Made by a program: the position numbers and the translations under genes. A stretch of 52,338 nt of DNA from Bryobacterales bacterium (GTDB lineage Bacteria; Acidobacteriota; Terriglobia; Bryobacterales; Bryobacteraceae). Location: NCBI GenBank assembly GCA_947467185.1, contig CANIHR010000003.1:1-52338 (forward strand). Direction: 5' to 3'. The notes beneath the pieces are model-generated. The model was not told where the DNA came from and did not search any database. It saw nothing but the letters and a program-made list of their open reading frames with translations. Of the stretch, positions 36,610-41,296 are shown one piece after another. Every line of letters starts with the position of its first letter. Position 1 is the first letter of the stretch.

Positions 36610-36897
36610 ATGAAAGCTCCTAAGAACTCACTGGTCCTCACCGCCGCTTTCGCCGGCCTGCTCTCGGGTACTGTCGCCCGTGCCACTGCCGCCCCCAGCG
36701 GATCTTCCAGCCAGCACAACATCGGCGTCGCCGGCCAGTTTGCCGATACCGCCAAGGCGAAGGTCGAAAAGCACGCCTGCAAGGGCAAGAACTCCTGTAA
36801 GGGCAACGGCGGGTGCGCTTCCGGTGATAACGGCTGCGCCGGCAAGAACTCCTGCAAGGGCAAGGGCGGTTGCGCCACCGATTCGAAGAAGATGTAG
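36610..36897 (+). CDS. Secreted Cys-rich peptide, probable bufferin-like RiPP precursor
   Basis: A 95-residue protein with an N-terminal Sec-type signal (MKAPKNSLVLTAAFAGLLSGTVARA, AxA cleavage near 23-27), a spacer, and a Lys/Gly/Cys-rich C-terminus. Six cysteines (57, 63, 69, 76, 82, 88) sit in two near-identical units of pattern C-x-G-K-N-S-C-K-G-x-G-G-C. ATG 36610 is used since the upstream in-frame ATG 36559 would hide the signal. The next two genes encode an MNIO (DUF692) enzyme and a DUF2063 protein, the known modification pair for exported copper-binding bufferins and HvfA-type peptides. It is therefore probably modified at Cys, exported and metal-binding. The precursor is unlike the DUF2282 type. 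Confidence 0.8.
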   Translation: MKAPKNSLVLTAAFAGLLSGTVARATAAPSGSSSQHNIGVAGQFADTAKAKVEKHACKGKNSCKGNGGCASGDNGCAGKNSCKGKGGCATDSKKM

Positions 36898-36921
36898 TTT
36901 CCGCGGACCCTGTGCAGCCCC

Positions 36922-37755
36922 ATGCCAGCCAATCGTTTTAACGGGTTCACCGACTACGGGGTTGGCGTCGGGCTGCGGATACCGCATTACGACCACATCC
37001 TGAACCGCCAGCCGGTTGTTGAGTGGTTCGAGATCATTTCCGAAAACTTCATGGTCGACGGTGGCCGTCCTCTCGCCATCCTCGACCAGATCCTGGAACG
37101 CTATCGCGTGGTGCAGCACGGCGTCTCCATGTACTTCGGTTCGGCCGACAAGCTGAATCGCGAACACCTCCGGCGCCTCAAGACCCTCGTCCGCCGCACC
37201 AAAACTCCCTGGCTTTCCGATCACCTTTGTTGGGGTTCTGTGGATGGCCGTTACTCCCACGATCTGCTCCCCATGCCATACACCTTCGAAGCCGCGAAGG
37301 TCACGGCGCGCAAGATCCGCGAAGCCCGGGATTTCCTCGAAGTTCCCATCGTGGTTGAGAACGTCAGCAGCTACGCGGAGTTCCACGTCTCGGAAATGAC
37401 CGAGTGGGCGTTTCTCAACGAAGTGGTGGAGCGCGCCGACTGCGGCATTTTGCTCGACGTCAACAACATCTATGTCTCCAGCCGCAATCACGGCTTTGAT
37501 CCCTATGAGTACCTCAACGCGGTCCCTGCAGATCGTGTGGCGCAGATCCACATCGCCGGGCACTCCACGTACGAGAAGTACATCCTCGACACGCACGACC
37601 ATCCCGTGATCGATCCCGTCTGGGCTCTCTACGAAAAGGCTATTGCCCGCACCGGTAACACGGCGACGCTGCTCGAATGGGACCAACATATTCCGTCTTT
37701 CGACGAAGTCCACAATGAAGCGCTGAAAGCGAAGCGATACCTGGTGTCCGCATGA
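36922..37755 (+). CDS. MNIO-family (DUF692) peptide-modifying enzyme
   Basis: A 277-residue TIM-barrel enzyme of the multinuclear non-haem iron oxidative family (MbnB, BufB, HvfB), which modifies cysteines in precursor peptides. Likely metal ligands are spread as in the family: GVGLRIPHYDHI (His22/25), EIISENF, QHGVSMYFG (His66), SDHLCW (His101), VENVSSY (Glu146), LLDVNNIY (Asp179, Asn181/182), QIHIAGHS (His210/214), DTHDHPV (Asp223, His225/227) and LLEWDQH (Glu252). It starts 24 bp after the Cys-rich precursor gene and overlaps the DUF2063 gene by 4 bp (ATGA). Family assignment is firm; the reaction on this precursor is inferred. Confidence 0.92.
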   Translation: MPANRFNGFTDYGVGVGLRIPHYDHILNRQPVVEWFEIISENFMVDGGRPLAILDQILERYRVVQHGVSMYFGSADKLNREHLRRLKTLVRRTKTPWLSDHLCWGSVDGRYSHDLLPMPYTFEAAKVTARKIREARDFLEVPIVVENVSSYAEFHVSEMTEWAFLNEVVERADCGILLDVNNIYVSSRNHGFDPYEYLNAVPADRVAQIHIAGHSTYEKYILDTHDHPVIDPVWALYEKAIARTGNTATLLEWDQHIPSFDEVHNEALKAKRYLVSA

Positions 37756-38489
37756 AGCTCGCCGAACTCCAGCGCCGAATGTTCGCCGAAATCACCAACA
37801 CCGTCATCTCTGCGGACTACATCAAGCCGAATGCCCGCCTGACGGCGCGGGAACGCCTCGACATCTATCGCGATCAATACTGGTCGCGCCTCATCGATTC
37901 GCTGCGTGATGATTTCCCTGGCCTGTTGCTCTTGCTTGGAGAGCGCGCGTTTCAGAAGCTGGCGATCGAATACCTGACCGCCTGCCCGTCAAAATCCTTC
38001 ACGTTGCGCGACCTCGGCCAGCACCTGCCCGCGCATCTGCAGAACCAGCCGCTCGAACACGACATGGCCCGCCTCGAATGGGCCCACATCGAAACGTACG
38101 ACGCGTTGGAATCAGAACCTCTCAGTGCCACTTTCACACCCGATCAAGCCCTGGCTCTGCAGCCGCACATCCGACTACTGGAACTCCAATATCCGGTTGA
38201 CGACGTGCGGCTGAAAACTCTTTCAGCCCGCGCCGTAAAAGCGCGTCGCCCCGCGACCATCCACCTCGCCACCCACCGCGTCGAAGGCGATGTCTTCTAC
38301 CGCCGCCTCGAACCCGGTGAATTCGCCATCCTGCAAAAACTCAGCACTGGCAAATCCCTCGCCAAAGCTCTTCGGGGCATCATTGCCAACCCCGAAGACC
38401 TCCAGCGCTGGTTCGCCACCTGGGCTCAATTAGGCTGGCTCTGCCACCCACCCGCTAAACGTACTTCTGCCAGATCGCGCGGCCAATAA
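37752..38489 (+). CDS. DUF2063 partner protein (BufC/HvfC-like)
   Basis: A 245-residue protein of the DUF2063 family, which accompanies MNIO enzymes and is thought to deliver or position the precursor peptide. The N-terminal domain (LAELQRRMFAEITN, ERLDIYRDQYWSRLIDSLRDDFPGLLLLLGERAFQKLAIEYL) is characteristic; the C-terminal half (from about 150) has RVEGDVFYRRLEPGEFAILQKLSTG. ATG overlaps the MNIO stop. The last 35 bp overlap the convergent HemQ-like gene. Its length matches the family. The partner role follows from family knowledge. Confidence 0.88.
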   Translation: MKLAELQRRMFAEITNTVISADYIKPNARLTARERLDIYRDQYWSRLIDSLRDDFPGLLLLLGERAFQKLAIEYLTACPSKSFTLRDLGQHLPAHLQNQPLEHDMARLEWAHIETYDALESEPLSATFTPDQALALQPHIRLLELQYPVDDVRLKTLSARAVKARRPATIHLATHRVEGDVFYRRLEPGEFAILQKLSTGKSLAKALRGIIANPEDLQRWFATWAQLGWLCHPPAKRTSARSRGQ

Positions 38490-39159
38490 AGAACGGCCCC
38501 ATCTTCTCCATAAAGCTCGAAGTCTGCCGGGTCTTCCGCATCGCCTGCACACAGATCGAGAGCGGTGCCAGTTCCTTGCCAATCAGTCCGATCACGAAGT
38601 CGTTGTCTTCTTTATCGATGCCGAAGCACGCGAGGCGCACGTCCTGCGCGAAACCCGCCGTGCCAAACGAATGGCCAATCGTGCCATGCTCCCGAAGAAT
38701 CGCCATCTGGTCTTCCGGGGGCAGGGAATTGAACTCGCCCTTGCGGCGCAGCGGGTACCAGACGTGCCACTTCCACTCGGCCGACGTTACTGCGCGCGGC
38801 GAACGGTGCATCAGCCAGTCTTCCAGATTGGGTTCATGTCCAATCGCGTACGTACGGCCCATCATCATGTATTCCGGCTTAAACGTCAGGTTCGCGAACG
38901 CGGCGCTGTTCAGCACCGGACGCACGCTGTCGACAAAGAAATTCGGATTGTCGCTCCACGTCAGCACGGCCACGCCCTGTGGATCGTTGGCGTCTTCATA
39001 GAGCACGCCGTTGATGCCGGCCGCTTCCAAAGCACTCACCAGAGAGCCTGTTTCGCGGGCATTGCCAAACGCCAGCAACTGCATGAACAGGCGCTTATCC
39101 GAAGTCTGCTGCACCCCGGCGCGCACGCCACCTTTTTCACGAATATCGAGTTGTTCCAT
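38455..39159 (-). CDS. Chlorite dismutase-superfamily haem protein, HemQ-like
   Basis: A 234-residue member of the chlorite dismutase superfamily. The C-terminal domain has WYPLRRKGEFNSLP (Tyr135 corresponds to the HemQ catalytic tyrosine), MAILREHGTIGHSFG (His158 is the probable proximal ligand) and GIDKEDNDFVIGLIGKELAPLSICVQAMRKT. HemQ converts coproheme to haem; other members act as peroxidases. ATG 39159 with GGAG 3 bp upstream is used; ATG 39219 would add 20 residues. No other haem genes lie nearby. It converges on the MNIO operon with a 35-bp overlap. Confidence 0.82.
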   Translation of the reverse strand: MEQLDIREKGGVRAGVQQTSDKRLFMQLLAFGNARETGSLVSALEAAGINGVLYEDANDPQGVAVLTWSDNPNFFVDSVRPVLNSAAFANLTFKPEYMMMGRTYAIGHEPNLEDWLMHRSPRAVTSAEWKWHVWYPLRRKGEFNSLPPEDQMAILREHGTIGHSFGTAGFAQDVRLACFGIDKEDNDFVIGLIGKELAPLSICVQAMRKTRQTSSFMEKMGPFFIGRAIWQKYV

Positions 39160-39233
39160 CTGCTCCAGAATAACGACTTCATCTTGCTGCCGCACACACC
39201 GCGCACGCGCCTTCCGCAACAGAGATTTTTCCC

Positions 39234-39263
39234 TTGACTTTATATCCGTCGTGACTCTATATA
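39234..39263 (+). promoter_or_regulatory. Candidate sigma-70-type promoter
   Basis: TTGACT at 39234-39239 and TATATA at 39258-39263 are separated by 18 bp, reading to the right, in an AT-rich island upstream of the HemQ-like gene. No annotated gene starts downstream on this strand; an intrinsic terminator follows about 80-100 bp later. The opposite strand has TATAAA in the same island, which could serve the HemQ-like gene. Confidence 0.5.
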
Positions 39264-39269
39264 TGAATC

Positions 39270-39368
39270 ACACTGCGGTTTTCACAACGCGTACAGTTTC
39301 CCGTCGATCTGGGAGAATCACTTCGATGAAGGACACAACCAAAAGGCTCCCCTCGGGGAGCCTTTTTC
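39270..39368 (+). ncRNA. Candidate small RNA
   Basis: A transcript of about 100 bases would start near 39270 from the promoter at 39234-39263 and end at the hairpin plus T5 at 39341-39367. A mini-ORF (ATG 39326, with GGGAG 10 bp upstream) runs through the hairpin and out into the antisense of the LytTR gene, so coding is unlikely. The position between HemQ-like and LytTR genes suggests an independent RNA, but the evidence is only promoter and terminator shape. Confidence 0.35.
39341..39367. terminator. Bidirectional intrinsic terminator
   Basis: The sequence AAAAGGCTCCC, loop CTCG, then GGGAGCCTTTTT forms a near-perfect stem of about 11 bp with a T5 run on the plus strand and a T4 run on the minus strand. 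On the minus strand it follows the LytTR stop by 9 bp; on the plus strand it ends the candidate small RNA. Confidence 0.8.
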
Positions 39369-39375
39369 CTTGCCT

Positions 39376-40155
39376 CTACTTCGCGCCCGCACCCAATAAC
39401 AACCGCGATTCCAGCTTCTCGCGATGGTTCTTCGTGAGGGTCAGTTCCGTGCCATCGCGCAGGATCACGCGATAGTCGCCACGGAACCACGGCTGCAGCT
39501 CTCGAATACGATCCAGGTTCACAATCGCGGAACGGTGAACGCGCAAAAACTGCCCTGGATCGAGCCGCGCTTCCAGTTCGTTCATCGTCTCGCGAACCAC
39601 GTGAGTCTCGCGTCCGCAATGCAGGCAGACGTAGTTGTCGGAAGCCTCGAACCAGTCGATCTCATCCAGCCGGATGAACACGACGCGGCCATTGTTCTTC
39701 ACCGCAATTCTGTCAGGCGTCTTCCGCGGCTTAGTCAGATTCTCAAACAGTTCAAACAGCCGGGAATTGTCCGATTTACCCGTGCGCTCCTGCTCCACAC
39801 GCGCCTTCGCGCGCTTCAGCGATTCCAGGAACCGACGCCCGTCAAACGGCTTCAGCAAATAGTCGAACGCATGCACTTCAAAGGCACGCAGCGCATAGTC
39901 GTCATACGCCGACGTGAAGATGATCAGGGGTCGAATCTCCTGCAGCGCGGCAAGCACCTCGAACCCATCCAGTTCCGGCATCTGCACGTCCAGGTACAGA
40001 ATGTCGGGCGGCGTCAGTCGCAACGCTTCCAGCGCTTCCGCGCCGTTCTCACACTCACCCACTACTTCGCAATCGGCCTCCAGCGCCAGTAGCCGCCGGA
40101 TGCGCCGCCGCGACAACCTCTCATCGTCAACGATCAGTATTTTGTAGTTCGACAT
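39376..40155 (-). CDS. LytTR-family response regulator
   Basis: A 259-residue transcription factor. The receiver has IVDDE, the phosphoacceptor Asp56 in YLDVQMPELDG, FTSAYDDYALRAFEVHAFDYLLKPF and the conserved Lys. The C-terminal LytTR DNA-binding domain (about 148-250) has RIAVKNNGRVVFIRLDEIDWFEASDNYVCLHCG and FLRVHRSAIVNLDRIREL. Its start overlaps the histidine kinase gene by 29 bp, so the pair is one operon. Targets are unknown; the adjacent TonB-dependent receptor gene and the HemQ-like gene are candidates. An intrinsic terminator follows. Confidence 0.93.
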   Translation of the reverse strand: MSNYKILIVDDERLSRRRIRRLLALEADCEVVGECENGAEALEALRLTPPDILYLDVQMPELDGFEVLAALQEIRPLIIFTSAYDDYALRAFEVHAFDYLLKPFDGRRFLESLKRAKARVEQERTGKSDNSRLFELFENLTKPRKTPDRIAVKNNGRVVFIRLDEIDWFEASDNYVCLHCGRETHVVRETMNELEARLDPGQFLRVHRSAIVNLDRIRELQPWFRGDYRVILRDGTELTLTKNHREKLESRLLLGAGAK

Positions 40156-41296
40156 GGTCTTCCATCACACTGTTCTTTCGTGCTGCTTCATCCGGGAAGC
40201 TCCGATATGGCATGGTGATCCGTGCCTCTGCACCGCCCGCCGGCAGGTTGCGCAGCGCGAGCGACTGCTTCGCGCCATACAGCGATTCCAGCCGTCCCCG
40301 CGTAATCGACAGGCCCATCCCCTGATACCCGGGCTTCTGCGCGCGCGCCTTTATGGCGTCCTCGCGCAACCCGACGCCGTTGTCCGCAATCCGCAGCACC
40401 AGCGTGCCGTTGAAGCGTTCTGCGGAAACATGGATCACGCCCGGTCCCGCCTTCTTCCCCAGGCCATGCCGAATCGCGTTCTCCACCAAAGGCTGCAGCA
40501 CCAGATTCGGCACCATCGCCTCATGCAGTTCCACTGGCACATCATAGTGAACCTGCAATCGATCTTCAAAACGAGCGTGCTCAATCTCCAGATACAACTC
40601 CAGAATGTGCAGTTCCTCGCTCAGCGGAACCTCATGAATTGTGCTGTTCGCGAGGAACAGCCGCAGTAGTTCTCCCAGTCGCGTGATCGTCCGTTCCGCC
40701 AGATCGGGATCTTCATGCACCAGCGCCGAAATCGTGTGCAGAGTATTGAAGAGGAAGTGAGGATGCAGCTGCATTTTTAGTGCCTGCAACTGCGCCTGAA
40801 TCAGCTGCGTCTGCAACTGCGACGCTTTAATCAGGCCACCCTGATAACTCTTGTAGTAGAGGATCGCGTGCTCCACCAGCACCACCACAATGTAGAGCAG
40901 CGTTCCCGTATCAAACGTCGACTGTACGGACCGGAACAACTTCTCCCAGGCCATGTCATGGAACGCCGAAGTCGGCGGCCCGGTGATGGCATCGAACAAC
41001 AGCTTGATCACCGGCACCAGCACCAGAATGGACGCAATATGTGCCACCAGATGCCGGGGCCACACATTGCGCTCCAGCCTGTAGCGGCGGGCCAGCCAGC
41101 GTATCAGCGGCGTGAAGGCACCCCACAGATACGCGTAGGTCAGCTCATATCGCAGAGCCTCCGGCCACGACATCGGATGCGCGCTGAACGCATACCAGTA
41201 ATGGGCCTGCCATGCGCACAGCAAGCCATAAGCGGTCCACAGACCAAACAACACGCAGGCTTTTAGAATCGCCACACGTGTACGGTTGGTTGGCAT
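40127..41296 (-). CDS. LytS/YehU-type sensor histidine kinase
   Basis: A 389-residue kinase of the His_kinase (PF06580) class, partner of the LytTR regulator. Four hydrophobic segments occupy residues 8-150 and serve as a membrane sensor with short loops. The phosphoacceptor is His180 in LHPHFLFNTLHTISAL, and the ATPase domain has LVLQPLVENAIRHGLGKK and LRIADNGVGL with GMGLSITRGRLESLYG. Its 3' end overlaps the regulator gene by 29 bp. The N-terminus carries no known ligand-binding domain, so the signal is unknown. The TonB-dependent receptor gene ends 67 bp upstream. Confidence 0.92.
   Translation of the reverse strand: MPTNRTRVAILKACVLFGLWTAYGLLCAWQAHYWYAFSAHPMSWPEALRYELTYAYLWGAFTPLIRWLARRYRLERNVWPRHLVAHIASILVLVPVIKLLFDAITGPPTSAFHDMAWEKLFRSVQSTFDTGTLLYIVVVLVEHAILYYKSYQGGLIKASQLQTQLIQAQLQALKMQLHPHFLFNTLHTISALVHEDPDLAERTITRLGELLRLFLANSTIHEVPLSEELHILELYLEIEHARFEDRLQVHYDVPVELHEAMVPNLVLQPLVENAIRHGLGKKAGPGVIHVSAERFNGTLVLRIADNGVGLREDAIKARAQKPGYQGMGLSITRGRLESLYGAKQSLALRNLPAGGAEARITMPYRSFPDEAARKNSVMEDHVELQNTDR

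Follow-up and report, generated by a model that had tools for sequence, protein, structure and literature searches.

A probable bufABC operon of the Buf2 kind with a two-unit, six-cysteine precursor in a Bryobacterales bacterium

The DNA analyzed here, which we call the window, is a stretch of 52,338 nucleotides in which three genes lie head to tail on the (+) strand in the order precursor, MNIO, DUF2063. A gap of 24 bases separates the precursor gene from the MNIO start at 36922, and the MNIO and DUF2063 genes share an ATGA overlap. A preliminary description of this DNA had given the same gene coordinates, gap, ATGA coupling and cysteine spacing, all of which agree with the coordinates of the open reading frames. 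The features are as follows.

36610..36897, (+) strand: precursor gene, Buf2-like, 95 amino acids, six Cys (ORF reading, match to BufA2 NF050166)
36610..36690, (+) strand: signal peptide, probably also the recognition leader, MKAPKNSLVLTAAFAGLLSGTVARATA (start kept in L022 and L021; its extent, and cleavage after ATA, were guessed by eye)
36643..36669, (+) strand: leader motif A-A-x-x-G-x-x-x-G, with A12, A13, G16 and G20 (alignment of six-Cys precursors)
36778..36816, (+) strand: unit 1 (C1-C3), CKGKNSCKGNGGC (sequence, shuffle test, alignment)
36835..36873, (+) strand: unit 2 (C4-C6), CAGKNSCKGKGGC (sequence, shuffle test, alignment)
36922..37755, (+) strand: MNIO (DUF692) enzyme, BufB type (PF05114 and NF050167)
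37681..37686, (+) strand: D254, which lines up with the proposed catalytic base, and Q255, at the site reported to contact the substrate Lys (alignment)
37752..38489, (+) strand: DUF2063 protein, predicted PME-type-1 partner (PF09836 and fold match of the AlphaFold2 model)
38458-41296, (-) strand: chlorite-dismutase-like gene and LytTR response regulator with histidine kinase, directly downstream

The central gene encodes an MNIO that matches the Pfam family MbnB_TglH_ChrH (DUF692, PF05114) with an E value of 1.2e-108, the only such match found in the genome (the assembly is 96% complete), and with 352.5 bits it passes the cut-off of 310 for the BufB equivalog NF050167. The protein encoded downstream belongs to DUF2063 (PF09836; E 2e-18, 66.8 bits with a cut-off of 27.2), and Foldseek matches its AlphaFold2 model, built from 24 sequences with a mean pLDDT of 88.4, to TglI (8hci_A, E 1.4e-7) and to Neisseria NGO1945 (3dee, E 1.9e-7). 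As modeled, it has the make-up of a PME-type 1 partner, that is, DUF2063 plus a second RRE-type domain in an NGO1945-like fold; its score against the HvfC equivalog NF050145 is 43.8 bits, below the cut-off of 142. The preliminary description had proposed a bufferin-like MNIO/DUF2063 operon of an acidobacterium, and both parts of this proposal hold up, the first through the BufB score and a partner fold that matches known MNIO partners, the second through the titles of the three named loci that match best, which read Terriglobia, Acidobacteriia and Bryobacterales.

The six cysteines of the precursor (C57, C63, C69, C76, C82 and C88, referred to as C1 to C6) are spaced x5-x5-x6-x5-x5 and fall into two units of 13 residues each that are identical at 11 of 13 positions, a level of agreement that none of 2000 shuffles of the precursor protein reached, the best giving 8. 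The two-unit form had been recognized before, although the motif then written for it, C-x-GKNSCKG-x-GGC, departs slightly from the letters of the two units listed above. Loci L022 and L021 are the nearest relatives of the window in the MNIO tree described below, and in the three pairwise comparisons the 40-codon core of the precursor carries synonymous/non-synonymous differences of 16/2, 13/2 and 15/2, the 52-codon leader 15/10, 14/15 and 19/10. Because the units match beyond what shuffling yields and the changes in the core are mostly silent, the precursor is a real, translated and selected peptide, with its core under purifying selection. An upstream start at ATG 36559, with GGAGG before it, is not favored; both relatives align at 36610.

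The preliminary description had also staked its reading on the small ORF being conserved next to MNIO genes, which it is. Among the named relatives of the window MNIO, of which 80 loci were kept from 463 confirmed, a unit-type precursor precedes the MNIO by 15 to 484 bases in 73, and in five of the seven loci without one the MNIO starts 13-202 bases from a contig end, L085 and L102 being the two in which it does not. Downstream of the MNIO, all 80 loci have a tblastn match (E up to 1e-4) to the DUF2063 partner of the window. Conservation beside the MNIO and the synonymous bias of the core rule out a chance ORF, and the probability that the precursor is such an ORF or a repeat artefact is negligible. 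By title, the 80 loci are mostly Acidobacteria/Terriglobia and Verrucomicrobia bins, with one from Betaproteobacteria, so that this Buf2-like variant is present in bins of both Acidobacteriota and Verrucomicrobiota. Its spread is patchy, a BufB match above the cut-off being found in 32 of 151 relatives and in 57 of 396 genomes across the phylum.

One could also suppose that the precursor product acts without modification, as a thiol protein resembling a metallothionein, and that the MNIO has some other substrate. Three draft genomes of the same genus (G014, G017 and G018, to which the loci L200, L201 and L202 belong) carry a precursor without an MNIO in the fetched flank, the MNIO being on another contig, where L141 and L197 have no unit-type precursor upstream and the contig of L140 starts too close to tell. 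The precursors of L201 and L202 adjoin genes that we take to resemble rpsT and an EgtD-like methyltransferase. Stand-alone precursors are reported in the literature as well (PMC12452194). Set against the precursor upstream of the MNIO in those 73 of 80 named loci and the conservation of both the CKG motifs and the leader motif, however, an unmodified thiol protein is very unlikely, and we retain a precursor that is a substrate of the MNIO.

BufA2 (NF050166) is the sole NCBIfam match of the precursor at E up to 1, with 28.9 bits and an E value of 9.5e-7, and no other BufA2 match was found in the genome at E up to 10. This excludes a new family unrelated to known precursors. There is no match to DUF2282 (PF10048) at E up to 1, which disposes of a Buf1 identity and bears out the earlier statement that the precursor is not of the DUF2282 type. 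The BufA2 equivalog cut-off of 60 bits is missed, probably because the sixth cysteine closes a second GKGGC unit rather than following GKGW...EC: the window precursor lacks GKGW after C5 and a displaced C6, and has instead GKGGC, with five residues between C5 and C6 (GKGW plus a displaced C6 is a criterion of our own, read from L142-L150, and not a published rule). Precursors of the GKGW type score 69.1 bits (L150) and 58.6 bits (L190), and the tandem precursor L010 comes just above the cut-off at 61.9 bits through its summed repeats; three more precursors from the clade of the window reach 36.8 bits (six-Cys), 17.9 bits (one-unit) and 13.9 bits (four-Cys). Weak matches to this short, Cys-rich profile can arise by chance, as the one match at E up to 0.01 in the Lactococcus lactis control genome indicates, so it is not the BufA2 match alone but the operon and its conservation that settle the identity. 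By the curated test the window precursor is a Buf2-like variant and not a BufA2 member, and since it lies below that cut-off its function is transferred across a gap. At E up to 0.01, BufA2 matches occur in 27 of the 151 relatives, with one above the cut-off, compared with the 32 relatives that pass for BufB, which suggests that the curated BufA2 model under-calls Acidobacteriota. Searched against plasmids by tblastn, the window precursor gave no match; the L150 precursor matched 23 plasmid records from Pseudomonadota genera, each at less than 60% identity.

The preliminary description had regarded the precursor as unusual for such systems, which is not the case, because six-Cys ORFs beside DUF692 and DUF2063 genes were already known. 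A six-Cys small ORF followed by DUF692 and DUF2063 was reported in 2021 from Antarctic soil Gammaproteobacteria (PMC8692599), and Buf2 (Buf_6/12Cys, BufA2) has since been named, with six conserved cysteines in 90% of its members and twelve in the remainder (PMC12452194). The window answers to the Buf2 description given there, with a signal peptide (by eye) and six cysteines upstream of MNIO and DUF2063; it also shares the precursor-MNIO-DUF2063 order and CxGxNxCxG, and DoxX is often near the MNIO in its relatives. Apart from the placing of C6 and the score, it differs from Buf2 in its MNIO, which belongs to a separate, long-branched clade. The Antarctic clusters have the same three components, but their homologues are described as almost exclusively from Proteobacteria, and the cited passages describe no two-unit form. 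Buf1 (DUF2282) has the same operon layout and an exported Cys peptide, but with four cysteines in another spacing. HvfA, oxazolin and fontiphorin, with their EGKCG repeats, are likewise repeat precursors served by MNIO and DUF2063, but they have the Lys-Cys order, 5-residue repeats and Phe after the base in the enzyme (the register of the MNIO to 3bww, which reads RD-F with Phe after the base, rests on a weak second aligned segment). We found no described relative closer than Buf2, and no description of the two-unit form in the titles and abstract openings searched or in the cited portions of these papers; the main text of PMC12452194 does not contain CKG, and neither "Acidobacteri" nor "twin-arginine" appears in the main texts of PMC12452194 and PMC13097082. 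The true difference is thus narrower than first described, namely two equal units, a C6 that closes the second, and a BufA2 score below the cut-off; the system is real and largely of a known kind, in a variant form with informative relatives.

The wider set of 203 sequences (202 loci and one excerpt of the window) gave an MNIO match in 196, with 147 distinct MNIOs, 126 of them with a unit-type precursor and 21 without. A quick tree was made of 142 of the 147, five rows below 45% identity to the window MNIO being excluded, and 53 of its 139 inner branches are drawn open. It groups 101 MNIOs, including that of the window, in one clade on a long branch with support of 100, separate both from a clade in which tandem precursors predominate and from the MNIOs of GKGW-type precursors. 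All 147 distinct MNIOs have Asp at the position that aligns with the proposed catalytic base. At the following position, 94 of the 101 distinct MNIOs that share 74% identity or more with the window MNIO have Asp, 4 have Ala and 3 have Gln, the last being those of the window (Q255), L021 and L022; L151, a distant MNIO of the tandem clade, has Gln there too.

This position matters for comparison with the "Cys-Lys" group of captophorins, copper-binding thiooxazole RiPPs (PMC13097082), in which the residue after the base contacts the substrate Lys in a model of the enzyme. The window resembles that group in its several Cys-Lys motifs (Lys directly follows C1, C2 and C5), its DUF2063 (PME1) partner and the Asp base, but where the published logo shows a trend to Asp after the base, the window and its two nearest relatives have Gln. 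Since FonB changed at the aligned site is still active, with altered tolerance (PMC13097082), by analogy the activity of the window MNIO is not in doubt, and its reading of the substrate may differ. The Gln gives some weight to the idea that the MNIO installs a different modification on the units, such as a cross-link or an oxazolone-thioamide, and MNIOs catalyze many reactions (PMC12452194). We consider this quite unlikely, however, given an enzyme above the BufB cut-off and the suggestion, made together with a call for more work, that partner-dependent (PME1) MNIOs form 5-thiooxazoles broadly (PMC13097082); thiooxazole formation on Cys preceding Lys is the reading we prefer.

Natural variation among the relatives offers a view of which cysteines would matter. 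Their precursors have one, two or about four units, L040 having a single one, and this pattern lends support at the sequence level to the earlier suggestion that each unit may be one module. L075 and L107 have a long linker between two units (C2-C5 spacing above 25), as if a unit had been copied separately. We parsed domains by C2 and C5 (NxCxG) as the defining anchors. Of the 113 unique domain sequences, 84 have both C3 and C4, 20 have neither, 9 have C3 without C4, and none has C4 without C3. These counts include the doubtful row L164; no domain was parsed from L040 and L190, which have a single anchor each, and L157 and L189 have odd anchor numbers with one anchor each left over. The Fisher value of 1.3e-15 on these counts ignores relatedness and is not usable as a probability. 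Lys follows C2, and likewise C5, in 107 of the 113 domains, as expected for the group of PMC13097082, which favors a system of the Cys-Lys kind. Domains without C3 and C4 have C2-C5 spacings of 11, 14 or 16, compared with mostly 19, so that a single deletion could remove both cysteines. From these sequences we infer that C1, C2, C5 and C6 would form the core, with C3 and C4 dispensable. Repeated independent loss of C3 and C4 in single-domain precursors was considered and is not shown: the quick tree needs three changes, and constraining the 25 four-Cys rows to one clade was not rejected (p-AU 0.736) and gave a better-fitting tree. The four-Cys forms in the clade of the window may go back to one event; domains without C3 and C4 also occur in four tandem precursors of the separate clade (L151, L152, L161 and L020). 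The nine domain sequences with C3 but without C4 weaken the notion of C3-C4 as a strict disulfide pair.

The leader is conserved in a pattern of its own. A12, A13, G16 and G20 are invariant in all 33 aligned six-Cys precursors, an alignment of 31 of 41 rows preselected by a looser motif and six cysteines, plus the window and L032. All 92 single-domain leaders contain the looser motif (shuffled mean 2.6), as do 17 of 21 tandem-group leaders (0.4) and 5 of 10 GKGW-type leaders (0.6); these counts omit L155, L164 and L046 and concern related rows and a motif written after the sequences were seen. Such conservation agrees with the proposal in PMC12452194 that the recognition sequence includes the signal peptide. 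A Tat-like RRxF start is found in 15 of 21 tandem-group leaders, mostly of 12-Cys precursors (L010, L014, L153, L161, L192 and related ones), and in 0 of 92 single-domain and 0 of 10 GKGW-type leaders, with L009, a six-Cys, single-domain precursor that has RRxF, placed by hand in the tandem group for its tandem-clade MNIO. Counted by the precursor alone, RRxF is found in 14 of 20 tandem precursors and in 1 of 93 single-domain ones, and L009 means that the trait may follow the clade and not the tandem layout. These Tat-like starts suggest a second export route for the tandem forms.

The five window neighbors checked are a glycosyltransferase, a sodium:sulfate symporter, the chlorite-dismutase-like gene and the two-component pair, and neither DoxX nor a sigma factor is found among them. 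PMC12452194 gives DoxX as a core gene of bufferin clusters. Near the MNIO in the 80 kept named loci, a family whose only tested member is DoxX recurs in 42 and one whose only tested member is a sigma factor in 17, both from one single-linkage blastp clustering with one member per cluster compared with Pfam. From the same clustering, a further family recurs in 21 of the 80 (among them L035, L046, L061 and L092), some 2.0-2.4 kb beyond the start of the MNIO; its one tested member, from L035, contains an HExxH motif and matched no Pfam family at E 0.001.

We judge it likely that this soil acidobacterium carries, in these three genes, a Buf2 (Cys-Lys) type of bufABC operon that makes a modified, exported, copper-sequestering peptide. 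In favor are the BufB score, the fold of the partner, the BufA2 match, the invariant Asp and the recurring DoxX family; the missed BufA2 cut-off, Gln255, the patchy spread and the lack of DoxX among the checked neighbors weaken it. The DUF2063/RRE partner would probably bind the precursor through the conserved signal-peptide motif, and the MNIO would then oxidize cysteines that precede Lys, most likely to copper-binding 5-thiooxazoles, with C2 and C5 (NxCKG) as the best candidates and C1 next. The modified peptide would be exported by Sec and would sequester excess copper, the presumed metal, outside the cytoplasm. By analogy with relatives, from which both the copper role and the thiooxazole chemistry are transferred, the product is most likely an exported, enzyme-modified, copper-trapping peptide in a two-unit form.

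The same enzymes and chemistry could serve a role other than copper, either with another soft metal (gold, mercury) or in redox or sulfur stress. According to PMC12452194, the gig operons induced by gold are bufferin clusters and some bufferins are fused to MerC; the sigma-factor-type family near 17 loci also points this way, though in PMC12452194 sigma factors are in Buf1 and not Buf2 clusters, and a Lys-Cys operon in Microbulbifer reported to be unresponsive to copper (PMC12538549) counts against a copper role here. On the other side, Buf1, oxazolin and fontiphorin are reported copper binders (PMC13097082, PMC12452194), and none of the five checked neighbors points to another metal. We therefore think a role apart from copper unlikely and keep copper as the presumed ligand.

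A more far-reaching scheme may be drawn from the relatives, one that we offer tentatively and regard as doubtful when all its parts are taken jointly. The C-x5-C-x5-C unit would be a portable copper-site cassette, with its copy number (one, two or about four) tuning capacity; the essential modified cysteines would be C2 and C5 (NxCKG), and C3 and C4 a dispensable linked pair. With C3 and C4 dispensable, the four-Cys forms would converge on the Buf1 layout of an outer pair and two modified inner cysteines. The RRxF tandem forms would leave by Tat, already modified and perhaps metal-loaded, and exit by Tat after modification would remove the problem of export before modification.

The relatives also bear on which Buf2 cysteines are modified, since PMC12452194 (2025) states that the modifications and their sites are unidentified and reports a mass loss per Cys and a 305 nm band like those of Buf1. 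The natural forms (one-unit L040, four-Cys L086, the six-Cys window and 12-Cys L010) are substrates that could separate the roles of C2/C5, C1/C6 and C3/C4, and the leader motif is a candidate recognition site for the DUF2063 partner that can be tested. A class-level relative (L026, in genome G127) carries a four-Cys precursor that looks by eye like Buf1, before an MNIO only 36% identical.
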